From: Bolinopsis microptera
Taxonomy: Eukaryota > Ctenophora > Tentaculata > Lobata > Bolinopsidae
Length of the DNA: 64,000 nt
NCBI RefSeq assembly: GCF_026151205.1
Contig: NC_087073.1
Location: forward strand, 7,399,001-7,463,000
Direction: 5' to 3'
The first letter of the stretch is position 1, and each line of letters begins with the position of its first letter. The position numbers and the translations under genes were made by a program. Shown piece after piece: positions 247-6,432 of this stretch. Under the pieces are notes generated by a model that was given only the letters and a program-made list of their open reading frames with translations, was not told the origin of the DNA and ran no database searches.

Positions 247-3200
247 TCATAAACGTGTATTGTCCATTTGCATATCATCTGATGTATTTATAGTCCTTCT
301 CGGAGTTAATTTACGTGCAGTTTTTGTAAAAATCCACTCTATAAATTGATAGCATGTGAAAAATGAGAGCCCGATAAATAGATCTGTTAATCCTCCTAAT
401 TCGGCTGAAATATTGAGTGGTTAAAAATAACAAATATGGCACCTAAAAAGATGTTAGCAGAATTGTGCTTGTTCAAAGAAATCAGCTAAATTCTAAAACC
501 AACCTTAGGCTTAGGCCAGCAGACTACAGAGTAAGTCAATATTTATTAATCACTTGTAACTATTTGTGATGCTAAAACCATACATCTTTTCAGCCAGATA
601 AGATTGCATTTTAATGTTGGACCTTTTCTGATTCTTGAACAGTTAAGGGTAAATGAGAAATGCTAACAATCGTGTAACTTCATGATTTTACTTACCTATA
701 AAGCTGGCTATCTCGTAGCTAGCTGTTTGTACTACCTCTATTTTCGTCATCTGGTCCGTATAAAACACTAACTTTACCAAGTTTTTCTTAGCGTCTTCGA
801 AATTATCGTATCTTGACTTAACCTAAAGTAAATAATAGTTTCAGACACTGTCAACATAACGTTACTTGATGAAAAGCACCAACTGCAACATTAGACGAGA
901 AAAAAGCATTATTGCTGACATGGTTAATGAATATAGATTAAAGACGATAGTAGTAATAGTCAGCATTATACAGTCAAACGTTAACAAGGCATATCTGTGA
1001 AAGTAATGAAGTGTAAATGTTTACTGAATCCAGTTGACTGAGATAGGTTTCCCAGTATCTCTTAGCGGGATATTCACTGAACGAGAAATCGTATTCGTAT
1101 TGTCTGTAGTTACAGGGTTCATGGCATGTGGGAGGAGATGTAGACTTCTCAGTAGTGCTTTCTTTATCGTCCGTGCTATTCATCAAGACATCTGTGAGGA
1201 AATAATATGGGATCCATTACAAAATGTAGTCATTCTAGTCTACAAACTTTATCTTGTATACTTTATTTAAAGGAGAATGGAAGATCCCAATTAATTTGCA
1301 ATTCAGTAATTCTTTTACAAGTTTTTAGAATTCAACTTACTCGTTATTTTATTCTGACAGGAAGTCTCGGCTGAGATAGTGCATTCCTCCATTTCCAAGC
1401 ACTTTACACTACCCCACTGTAAACCTTTCCAATCGACACCGTTTTCTATTTCTTCTATTGCTGCTGTTTTCTTGTACAGCCAGCATTCGTTTTCACTCAT
1501 GATATCTGAAAACAAAATATTTTTTCACAATTAAAGAAACTCCTGGGTTCTATAGTCTGGTATTCTTTACCAATTCGTATAAATCGGTTGTCAGTGGGTG
1601 GAGCTTTTTTAAGCTTCTTATATTTCACGAGGCAGCAAGCCAGATGTATATGAAGTAAGTATATATGCAAGCTATGTATGAAGTATATGTATTATTTAAT
1701 TCAAATTCATAACCGCTCGTCTTTGTTTTGTTTAATTCTGAAAATATCAGTGATTATACAGTGTATATACAGTTACACTGACCGTTAGTCAGACCACTGT
1801 ACTGGAAATATAGACAGTCCACAGTATTGTCGCACAGATCCGCACAATCCTTTACTGACTTCAGATCTGTATTGGTGGAGATCCGATCAGTCGTCACGTT
1901 GTAACCTGTATCCTCGTAGTAACATGTCTCTGAAGAAAACACATGATATTAGAGGACATTCTCTCATGTCACAGTTTTATAAAGAAGACAAAGTAAGTGC
2001 GAAGTTATCAAACATGTTCCCCCCGAAAATACAAAACTGACGATTAAACTCTAGTCTGAATATTTCATCCACATCTTCAGTCCAATACTTCATAAGGGTC
2101 CATTTGATGTCAGGCGAGTATTTCTTGTCGTCAGCGTCCTTTATATATCTCTGGTAGAAATACCAGGGATAACAGCCACACCCGAGGTCCCTCAGCTTAG
2201 GGTACATCCACAACATCTGCAATGGTAGTCGTGAACTTTATCTTACTGGTGTTTGATGTATGCTTTTAAAATTGGTTCCATTCAGTGGTGAAGTTATGGG
2301 ATTAATTAAATATCCCCTGTATTGTATGCATCAAAAATGTGAATTCCTCATAATACTTCATTGTTAAATCTTAAGCCTCATTATCCAGTTTCACTCGGCC
2401 TGATATCCAACAGCATTACGAACCTGATCTAAATAGCATTCCTTCATCGTCATGTACCCTTTCTTGTCGAAGTGGTCCACCTTATCAATACAGTTGCCCC
2501 AGGGTTCTTCCAGTCTCGTTATCTGAAAGTACAAACCTTGAGTGGTCGGTCACCCTAGATTGATGTGAAAACACCGGTATAAATTAACCCTTTTCTTGGG
2601 TATAAAGATTTTCATTTTTTAAATTTTGGGCACCTCTATTACAATTCAATTTAAAAATTTAATTGATTAGCCGGTTGTTTGAGTGGTGTATGATAATTGG
2701 ATGTGAGGCAATAGCTCGCCCGTGAGCTACACGTGTTTAGCACGTTTGAGTCATGTGGTGTGTTATCTCACCCTCTTAGTTCGTAGATTTATAGCATATT
2801 CTTTCCCTGGTGACACCATAAACCCAAACTCCTGACTCAACACCGTCTCGTTAGCCATACGGAGTGTCACTAGAAACCCTGCTCGCTGCGTTTCTGGCAT
2901 GTAATGCTCGGTAAGAGCGTCCAGGGTTAAAGATAGCCCTCCAACAGCACCGTTTACTCTCTGGACAAGTTGCTCATCATCGTTTAGCTCCATGCAGAAC
3001 CCACTCGAGGTGTAGGCGTGTGAGGTGAATTCTTTGTGGTCCATTGGCTCTTTTGCGAACCTGGTGGATAGTTAGTATGTTATAGTGATCGAGAGAGACT
3101 GGGTGGTTCTAATCAATACTTGAAAGTTTAGCAATCAGTAAATCTTTACTTACAATGTCAACTCTTTTATGACAGCATCTTTTATGTCCATCCTGTAAGT

Positions 3201-5346
3201 TGTGTACATTTCTTCACTGTCCAATATTTCGTTTTTGTTATTTTGAGTGTCATCGGACTTAGAATCTCTTTGCTGCGGTAAATTTTGATATGAGAGCGGG
3301 TCATATAGGCATATAGTCTATAGAGTAAAAATCTTTGTGTCGCCATTTATATTATGGCTGAGACGCTCTTGACCACCATTTTGTGATGATGTAGTACTAG
3401 TAGGTGCATATCCTCATCGAATTTAAAACGATCGTTCAAGTCGATCAAGGTCGTTTTTACTGTAAAGCAATTTAAAGTAAAATCAAGATGCCTATCAAAA
3501 TTGCCTTGCTTGTGGACTCTGTTAAGCTTATGTACTTAACATTATAAATTAATCCTGTCCCTAGTTTAATAATTAGCAAATGGCACAGACTATAGTATAA
3601 AATATAGGATCAGAAGGAGCTTCTTACCCCGGTTTCATTGTTTATCCAATCCGCGTATTCCTTGTAAATATCAGTACCGTTCAGCTTTGTGTAGTTCAAA
3701 ATGTTGAGGTTACAAATCGTTACTGAAGATAGCAAAATGAACCAAATACCAATCTATTCTCTCTGTCAATAAAAAAATCAAACCTTAAAACATCAATCCC
3801 AAGATGTGTCATGTGGTCTCAACTTTTTTGTTAATAAAACACGTAACAAAACTGAAATAATGATTAATCTAACTGGCTGGCAGGGTGTAACTGTTAGCGA
3901 GCTGGCTAAACTCCAGGTTGTACGAATCATACTGGCGGTATTCTGATACCAGCAGGGATGTAATGTAGATACAGAAACCCGTCATCACCAGGAACACTAT
4001 CAACCAAACTGCTCTGAAATGGACAATGGTTAAAGAATACAGCTCAGATTCAAACTTGTGATGGGTAAAAACCAACGTTTTTTGCTGAATTCTTAAGCAG
4101 ATGATAATTTGCCGGTCGTACCTTCCAAATTTAGATCGGTAGTCTTTAAGCACCTCTGCTAAATAGTTGTTGCTTATATCTTTGAACCTGTGGTTGTAAG
4201 ATTTGGTTAAACAATGAACATCATCACCCATACATGAGTAGACATGATATTGAACAGGCTTCTGACATTTGAATAAACAACAATTAAAACGGAGTTGTTT
4301 GACGGTCTAGCTGAATCCTGACTGTTTGCTTCAAAGGAACATTTACTAAAGAGCATTTACCAGCTCAACACTGCCCAAAATGGTTATATCAAGTTTCTAA
4401 ATCTGAACATACCTAAAACGAGGAGGTTCGTCACTGTCATATTCATGATATTGAAATCATTGAAGTCATATTCATGATATTGAAATCATTACCGATCAAA
4501 ACTAAATGCTAGGTGCGATCTTTAAATCTACGATCTGTGTGAACTAACTCTCACAAAGTTTACTAGATTTATCTGTCTGCGGTTCTAAAGTGTAAACGTC
4601 TTCACGACAGTAACCCACAGATTGATGCTGGGCGAAGAAAGTAAGACTATTAACAATAAAGACTCCACAAATTAAAGACATCATAACAAAGCAACATAAG
4701 AAGTATTGGTTTGTTCAACAACACAGACTTCTTTAATGGACTCACTATACACATAGCCTGTAGGGGCAGCTGTAGACTAAACTATACATACACTGTACAT
4801 TGTCCTGTGAGGAATTTAGGAAAAGGAAGCTATTTACGTCTTCAGTTTACAAATCAGTGAAACACAAACATACTATGCGGGGGGACTACAGACCCCCTCA
4901 AAGTCCTTTTCAACGTTACTGCCAGGTTACATAGCAGTAGCACTAAAAATCAATAACATCAGAAATTCAAATTCAAAGCAATGCAGTTATAATAGGTATT
5001 ACAAAGCTATGTAATAACATGCTGCAATCTCTGATGGATCTGCGTTACAATCCCTTCTGCACACTATTATACAGCTGCATATTCACAACCCCACACACAT
5101 TGTTTCCATGTCAGACTTGCTTGCTATCCTGATCTAATTGCTTGGATTTAGGTTCGCACAGACTGACGAATCAAATAAAAACGAGAAAACGTGACATTGA
5201 GATAGCTGCAGTAATGAGGTATTGTTGGAAGACTAGAGTGAAGGTATGAACTCACAAAGTATCGTAATCAGATCGGCACTGTGTACCGTGTTGATCACGG
5301 TGGCTTTAAACCAGCTAATTCCAGGTGGCTGCTGGCCGTTCTCCAT
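247..5346 (-). CDS. DEG/ENaC-family sodium channel subunit, multi-exon
   Basis: Plasma-membrane channel subunit of the degenerin/epithelial sodium channel/ASIC family, with two membrane segments and a large cysteine-rich ectodomain. Exons, listed 5' to 3' on the minus strand: 5256-5346 (first, start uncertain), 3874-4013, 3628-3722, 3154-3272, 2772-3060, 2424-2522, 2042-2216, 1771-1929, 1341-1505, 1025-1191, 696-822, 247-404. From 3874-4013 to the stop all phases agree. TM1 is in 3874-4013 (RAVWLIVFLVMTGF). It runs into the family signature LPAITICN across the next junction. Exon 2772-3060 carries the GFMVSPG region, 2424-2522 has RLEEPWGNC, 2042-2216 has GCGCYPW, 1025-1191 has CHEPCNY, and 696-822 the pre-TM2 stretch ending SYEIASFIG. 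The last exon holds GGLTDLFIGLS, the G/SxS selectivity filter and TM2, then a short tail to the stop at 247-249. The first exon has a His-containing gating-like stretch (NTVHSADLITIL), but its phase does not fit 3874-4013, so a small exon is probably missed. Alternatively the second exon may simply extend upstream to an ATG at 4231. Confidence 0.9.
1341..1929 (-). other. PAN/Apple-like module inside the DEG/ENaC ectodomain (two exons)
   Basis: Exons 1771-1929 and 1341-1505 encode about 100 residues between the family's GCGCYPW and CHEPCNY blocks, where typical family members have a shorter linker. The pattern is TCYYEDTG, then VKDCADLCDNTVDCLYFQYS, then ECWLYKK and GSVKC. Cys spacing, aromatic-rich core and the CWLxK-like strand are those of PAN/Apple modules, which bind proteins or carbohydrates. 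Both exons start in phase 1 and end in phase 1, so they form a removable cassette. The donor of the upstream exon could be at 1771 or at 1783; both keep the frame. A WSC-like fold is an alternative. Confidence 0.6.
4014..5255. other. Putative first intron of the channel gene; small tandem repeat
   Basis: No coding exon could be assigned with confidence here, although one small exon joining 5256-5346 to 3874-4013 is expected. A 29-bp direct tandem repeat (unit GTCATATTCATGATATTG...) starts at 4436 and again at 4465. The minus frame upstream of 4013 stays open to an ATG at 4231, which would give an alternative N-terminus. Confidence 0.4.
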
Positions 5347-5667
5347 CTTTGTACAAATTGTCATGCGAATGACATGTTTTATTTTGTGGCTATTCTCGTG
5401 AGAGTGTATAGACATTCAGGTGAAAGAGAGGGAAGACTCTCTTGTTCGAGCAAGATAATTCTTATGGATGATTTTTCTTCAAATACTATAAATTTGGTAC
5501 AAAATATTTTGTCTCGCCAAGCTGATTACGATCCTGTAAAAAATGATTTCAAAATAACTGATACTTATGAGGCTAAAGGCATTTTAAGCTTGAAATCGGC
5601 CACTTTTGGTATTTTTACACGTATCATATCACTAAACTTCAGTAACAGTCTATACTCACACTAATTT

Positions 5668-6152
5668 GCCTCCTTAAAGTTTATTTGGGTTAGAAACGAC
5701 ATCTGGGTCCCTACCCTCGCACAAGATTATTCTCAATTTTCTTGTTGTGTTCCACAACTATACTTCTGTATACTTCAGTGATTTTGGGCTGATGACTCCA
5801 GTGAAAGGGCTGGTGACTCTAGTGAAAGTGCTGGTGACGATGAGAAAGACCATAAACCAGGGATTCCTTCGGGAGCATGTAAGATTATATCCAAAGTTTG
5901 TTCGCCAATGGGGTGTGTCTGGGTGTCAAAGATCTTCAAGGTGGGTGCTACTTGTGATGAACTCTAGAAGGATGGGGTGGTAATACTCGGTCTGGCCGTC
6001 TGGAAGCCCATAGAATTCCAGTTCAGAAACCGAGTAAGGAGGTGCGGCTACTGATGAGAAGCCTCCTTAAAGTTTATTTGGGTTAGAAACGACATCTGGG
6101 TCCCTACCCTCGCACAAGATTATTCTCAATTTTCTTGTTGTGTTCCACAACT
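5668..6152. repeat. Pair of 92-bp direct repeats flanking 301 bp
   Basis: Positions 5668-5759 and 6061-6152 are identical by eye, beginning GCCTCCTTAAAGTTTATTTG and ending TTCCACAACT. The enclosed segment contains a short imperfect repeat (GTGACTCTAGTGAAAGTGCT and relatives). This may be a tandem duplication of about 393 bp with a diverged second unit, or the remains of a small element with terminal direct repeats. No integrase, primer-binding site or other LTR feature is seen. Confidence 0.8.
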
Positions 6153-6432
6153 GGAACTTTATGTCTCAGGAACTGTACTCTTCTCCTGCTTGTTATCTTG
6201 TCATATTTTATGTTATCAAATAGTCCTTTTGAGATGTTCTCCTTGAAATTAATGTGGAAGGCTGGAAGTCACCATGATCAACAGGAAATAAATCAAAGAT
6301 AAGTAAGGAATAGGGATTCACTCAATTATCAAAAGGAAGTATAGCAATGCTAATGGGAAACAGAGAGTAACTCAATGATCGACTTTGATCTAACAGGGTA
6401 ACTTATAAATCAGCTAGAACAATAGAATTGTA

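Follow-up and report, generated by a model that had tools for sequence, protein, structure and literature searches.

Protons, peptides and force are all sensed through DEG/ENaC channels, and the route by which force or ligand reaches the pore is a standing question. For a locus in the ctenophore Bolinopsis microptera, we asked whether a channel gene carries a PAN/Apple domain within its ectodomain, as a first-pass annotation had proposed, and what such a domain might do there. We analyzed a stretch of 64,000 nucleotides (the window), in which positions 4187-247 of the minus strand hold the gene for a DEG/ENaC subunit (Pfam ASC, PF00858, E = 1.4e-46, in two stretches), with the ASC match spanning most of the window protein. 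Joining the exons at AG/GT borders gives a frame that is unbroken through twelve exons, from the pre-TM1 exon (4187-4122) to a stop at 249-247 (Table 1). In the PDB, the window protein matched 20 distinct sequences at E <= 1e-5, among them ASIC1, ASIC2, ASIC5, ENaC subunits and an FMRFamide-gated channel, with ASIC2 and ASIC1 as the best matches. Exons carrying TM1 and TM2 flank the ectodomain, and direct reading places GLS at the GxS position of TM2, which the PDB alignment sets against GAS of ASIC2.

Table 1. Exons of the window channel gene, listed from the 5' end of the gene; positions are those of the window.
Feature	Position	Strand	Basis or remark
Provisional first exon of the model	5256..5415	-	Donor phase 1; next exon wants phase 2 by comparison with L008
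Exon before TM1 (RFKDISNNYLAEVLKDYRSKFG)	4122..4187	-	Same exon in L008; joined model began at the shorter 4179
Exon with TM1 and start of ectodomain (AVWLIVFLVMTG...YTLPA)	3874..4013	-	ASC match
Exon ITICNLN...	3628..3722	-	AG/GT exon joining
Ectodomain exon, putative finger region (from position)	3154..3317	-	Conserved in part in L008
Ectodomain exon	2772..3060	-	ASC match, PDB alignment
Exon ITRLEEPWGNC...ECYLDQ, running up to and into thumb helix 4	2424..2522	-	First part aligns to ASIC2 (PDB)
Exon closing thumb helix 4 with GCGCYPWY, then about 40 residues up to PAN	2042..2216	-	L008 counterpart 61% identical
PAN exon 1, PAN cysteines 1-4 (C-x25-C-x3-C-x5-C), 147 bp, phase 1-1	1783..1929	-	AG/GT borders, PAN_1 match
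PAN exon 2, PAN cysteines 5-6 followed by the C-x7-C of the native thumb, 165 bp, phase 1-1	1341..1505	-	AG/GT borders
Exon with CHEPCNY, return to palm	1025..1191	-	AG/GT borders
Palm exon toward pore	696..822	-	AG/GT exon joining
Last exon: TM2 with GLS motif, C-terminus, stop at 249-247	247..404	-	ASIC alignment

The sequence of the pre-TM1 exon, RFKDISNNYL, lacks HG, like that of related channels of the genome, and the exon upstream of it in the model is only provisional. That first exon is probably not joined as modelled, and the finding of a PAN domain within the channel is unaffected by this doubt. Pre-TM1 segments without the usual His-Gly motif occur in the window gene (4122-4187) and at L002, L008, L015 and L023 (KDISNNYL, IHDLANDY, QDLASDY, QDLASEY); in contrast, L017 and L018 carry SGHG and SAHG before TM1. 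Upstream of the gene, KFIWVRNDIWVPTLAQDYSQFSCCVPQL is coded in frame twice, at window positions 5665-5781 and 6058-6165, as a duplicated or dispersed repeat.

Between the channel motifs GCGCYPWY and CHEPCNY, exons 1929-1783 and 1505-1341 contribute 104 codons, and the PAN/Apple domain accounts for about 85 residues of the ectodomain. The insert alone scored 24.0 bits against PAN_1 (E = 3.5e-5; curated cut-off 21.4), and the whole 647-aa window protein scored 20.8 bits, just under the cut-off. In the PDB, the insert matched nine kallikrein and factor XI sequences at E 0.0004-0.1, followed by weaker rows for a hydrogenase (0.2), factor XI (0.31) and a kelch-domain protein (three rows, 0.58-0.59). 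Apple domains pair their cysteines C1-C6, C2-C5 and C3-C4; the six cysteines of the window insert follow the Apple order and are spaced 25-3-5-17-27. A DEG/ENaC channel with a PAN/Apple module is thus borne out by the ASC match, the PAN_1 score of the insert and three further loci described below; running Pfam on the joined exons, a check that the first-pass annotation had itself named, returned ASC together with PAN_1 on the insert alone.

The exons, phases and flanking motifs (GCGCYPW and CHEPCNY) previously described for this insert are all present at AG/GT borders, and two details need revision. The coordinates 1341-1505 stand, but the end of the first PAN exon, formerly placed at 1771, is most likely 1783, giving an exon at 1783-1929: the end at 1771 lowers the PAN_1 score to 20.6 bits from 24.0, and the L008 paralog shares the TN|D junction. 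Both candidate ends preserve the reading frame. The description as two phase 1-1 exons holds for the phases and for the 5' border, which coincides with the boundary of the domain; the 3' exon, by contrast, continues about 20 residues beyond the sixth PAN cysteine. We rejected a clean symmetric two-exon cassette, as the second exon includes the native thumb C-x7-C (CTISAETSC). This C-x7-C before CxxPC is also found in nine PAN-less channels (L001, L002, L006, L015, L016, L019, L022, L023 and L024). Because exon 1505-1341 runs on into the native thumb, skipping both exons would delete channel residues too.

The genome searched comprises 264.7 Mb in 232 contigs, with the window on C2, and contains 47 ASC matches. 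A glutamate receptor of this genome (L010) has the Mnemiopsis receptor ML032222a as its best PDB match, and part of that chain, used in turn as query, retrieved genes of up to 80% identity across 117 residues, in keeping with a lobate ctenophore. Using a 218-residue segment of the window protein as query, we recovered the insert region at three further loci, at the same site; a fourth match (C4, E = 0.17) covers just the part downstream of the insert. L008, on contig C8, matches the window gene in its exons, their phases and the TN|D junction. In L004, on C7, a single open frame covers everything from before TM1, across the insert, to beyond TM2 (595 codons from stop to stop, 580 from a TTG); over residues 55-620 it shares 35% identity with the window protein. 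Because no ATG precedes TM1, L004 probably starts in a further exon. L003 (G000:C2:13405400-13408100) has the same organisation, with a frame change inside the insert at about 1867-1966, for which an assembly error, a small intron and a decaying gene are all candidates. The cysteine spacing of the insert is 25-3-6-17-27 in L008 and 24-3-5-18-23 in L004. Scored alone, the L008 insert exceeded the PAN_1 cut-off of 21.4 (21.8 bits), and the L004 insert was under both cut-offs (PAN_1 19.7 against 21.4; PAN_4 20.7 against 27), as was the whole L004 protein (14.7 and 17.7 bits, respectively). PAN-bearing channels thus occupy at least four loci including the window gene, a lower bound because the search would miss divergent inserts and because the CxC-to-CxxPC segment was measured in eleven loci besides the window gene.

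In a tree computed without the insert, the four PAN carriers group together as a clade with support 99/100 (one change; 100% of 200 bootstrap trees), one half of which consists of the window gene and L008, with many introns, and the other of L004 and L003, with few. The tree comprised 17 DEG/ENaC rows of the genome, with L003 represented by its pre-insert part only, L006 by its first open piece, L016 by its longer open frame and L017 by two pieces; L005, L012-L014 and L025 were omitted as fragmentary. The simplest reading would be a single gain of the PAN domain in the common ancestor of the carriers, followed by long retention. Two of the omitted loci, L012 and L013, lie in a cluster of partial DEG/ENaC matches at G000:C8:14512905-14528908. 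Their last-exon matches are listed as lying in open frames of 381 and 480 codons, but the DNA of the two loci has frames of at most 107 and 96 codons, and none there reaches 150 aa.

By alignment, the PAN domain lies in the ectodomain loop that joins thumb helices 4 and 5. The PAN-less channel L016 aligns with ASIC1 up to VENCNC and then again around CVCEMPC, and we take the stretch between them to be the thumb helix 4-helix 5 loop plus helix 5, in the naming of the ASIC structure. We measured the segment from CxC to CxxPC in eleven loci (L001, L002, L004, L006, L015, L016, L019 and L021-L024) and in the window gene. It spans 177 residues in the window gene, 166 in L004 and 70 in L016, and 101-217 in L006, L019, L015, L023, L022, L024, L002 and L001. 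Other channels have differing, often low-complexity sequence at this position, suggesting that the thumb loop accepts inserts, which in one lineage took the form of a putative disulphide domain. We had also considered a PAN domain in the gaps of the ASC match in L001 and L002; by eye, these hold acidic or Ser/Thr/Pro-rich linkers instead. Long acidic, Asp/Glu- or Ser/Thr/Pro-rich linkers occupy the thumb loop of L001, L002 and L024 where others hold the PAN, and the L001 linker includes a run of eight aspartates.

PAN/Apple domains in other proteins bind proteins or glycans, and by analogy it is fairly likely that the channel PAN binds an extracellular partner, which could be a matrix protein, a glycan or a secreted ligand, in line with the ligand- or matrix-binding role that the first-pass annotation suggested. 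The PAN would form an independently folding module on the outer side of the trimer, with three such modules per homotrimer, and a pull on it, or binding to it, would alter the open probability. The thumb adjoins the acidic pocket (PMC10148893) and has been suggested as a transmitter of conformational change (PMC2943245). The PAN would most likely serve as an extracellular binding module coupling a partner to the thumb. Because the thumb is among the parts suggested to transmit such change, binding at the PAN could shift the open probability; we rate the chance that partner binding modulates gating as a little short of even. For the protein as a whole, we lean slightly toward a DEG/ENaC subunit whose thumb-loop PAN makes it a ligand- or tether-modulated sodium channel. 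A bolder proposal, that ctenophores possess a channel subfamily with a built-in thumb receptor domain in which the PAN, on binding a matrix glycan, an adhesive protein or a secreted ligand, directly gates the pore, is tentative and seems to us rather doubtful. If true, it would describe a self-tethered mechanosensor or a one-protein ligand-gated channel, and we know of no DEG/ENaC channel that is directly PAN-gated in this way.

The PAN domain could instead act as an assembly or clustering module that pairs neighbouring subunits or channels and sets subunit choice or surface density, leaving gating untouched. Apple domains self-associate in factor XI dimers, and four related loci in one genome carry the PAN, as would be expected for pairing subunits. 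However, while the inserts of the window gene and L008 are 46% identical, identity between the two subclades is 27% (window-L004) and 21% (L008-L004), which argues against a single common pairing surface, and we regard an assembly role as unlikely, though it deserves consideration.

Another possibility is that the PAN is a tolerated structural insert, which merely packs on the thumb and binds nothing. The nine PAN-less channels span 70 to 217 residues between CxC and CxxPC, several of them with low-complexity linkers as judged by eye, and low-complexity inserts at the same place indicate that an insert here need not have a binding function to be tolerated. In the PAN carriers, however, six cysteines are conserved over a tree path of about 1.9 substitutions per site, unlike the linkers, and a purely structural insert appears improbable to us compared with the ligand- or tether-modulated channel that we prefer.

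The segment might also be no PAN domain at all, but a locally evolved, extended cysteine-rich thumb that has converged on PAN, an explanation to which the modest PAN scores of the single sequences lend some weight. A home-made PAN model, built from 21 of 31 listed PAN fragments of the genome (leaving out six of L032 and four of L028), gave 17.3 bits for a 126-residue window segment, 13.4 for the whole window protein, 16.0 for L004 and 8.2 for L008. Among 2000 shuffles of the window segment, one outscored the real sequence (18.6 vs 17.3), and the L008 segment scored under three shuffles; PAN-less control channels yielded no frame among the best 30 rows of this model. In insert-insert alignments, none of 1000 shuffles matched the real score in any of the three pairs. 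The pairwise alignment of L008 and L004 brought five of the six cysteines into register, which 7 of 1000 shuffles did equally well, and the three-way alignment aligned all six cysteines in all three inserts. The profile and hhalign comparisons included three inserts and omitted the fourth, that of L003, because of its frame change. With an E-value limit of 10, the three-insert profile matched 18 distinct PDB sequences and ranked PAN/Apple-type chains first: these made up 15 of the 18, all at E <= 0.21, namely plasma kallikrein, factor XI, MIC4, MIC5 and a kelch-domain protein, of which we take the last three to contain PAN domains. The stretches matched in these chains show PAN spacing, and we take the other three matches, SMC proteins with E values of at least 1.3, as due to chance. 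Aligned by hhalign with twelve ordinary PAN domains of the genome, the inserts gave E = 1.9e-7 (probability 93.7%), and they share the C-x3-C-x5-C core and the CWL strand of such domains. The profile matches to PAN/Apple chains and the hhalign result argue against a mere extended channel domain, the outcome that would have undone the earlier proposal, and make convergence of the thumb very improbable; judged from these comparisons, the insert is almost certainly a genuine PAN domain inside the channel. That adjacent PAN exons were falsely joined to a channel gene is scarcely credible, for although the gene model is built from genomic sequence, L004 reads channel, PAN and channel in a single open frame, which makes a wrong choice of exons unlikely, and L008 repeats the same exons and phases.

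In common with ASIC, ENaC and FaNaC channels, the window protein has TM1, the ectodomain blocks and the GxS motif in TM2; it differs from them by the roughly 85 extra residues in its thumb helix 4-helix 5 loop, and to our knowledge these channels contain no PAN domain. Plasma kallikrein, factor XI and MIC4/MIC5 are secreted proteins, with their Apple domains outside any channel. They share with the insert the Apple-type cysteine order as well as sequence and profile matches, whereas the window protein has a single PAN inside a channel loop. The C. elegans degenerins MEC-4 and UNC-8 likewise have extra cysteine-rich ectodomain segments relative to ASIC1 (PMC2943245), which are not described as PAN in passages of PMC2943245 and PMC10148893. 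Among DEG/ENaC channels, mec-4 acts together with matrix components, and the matrix tethers proposed for the family are separate proteins or glycans (PMC10148893). A binding domain embedded in the thumb would allow the tether idea to be probed by removing or exchanging one module.

A search of the open-access literature found no DEG/ENaC channel with a PAN or apple domain; works naming such a domain together with ENaC dealt with plasminogen, a Toxoplasma motor and membrane protease inhibitors. Within that scope, the first-pass view that no standard family member is known to be built this way survives. The open-access literature likewise yielded no PAN domain linked with ctenophores, and in the broader literature the term PAN or apple was absent among the matches listed. 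The combination of ASC and PAN in one channel is well supported and would represent a new domain architecture for a known family, adding to those of DEG/ENaC channels. The nervous system of ctenophores may have an independent origin. Ctenophore members of the DEG/ENaC family are described as divergent and hard to place (PMC10507113; PMC9822975).

The ordinary PAN proteins of the genome (L026-L031) have the cysteine order, the C-x3-C-x5-C core and a CWLK-like strand in common with the channel PAN, which differs from them in a longer loop before cysteine 5 and in having no GG..GP stretch. On the minus strand at G000:C9:1857479-1875013, dozens of PAN_1 matches lie within one open frame of 5,916 codons, including a run at exact 312-bp steps with near-equal scores; the product of this frame is a giant protein of PAN repeats that is perhaps secreted or adhesive.
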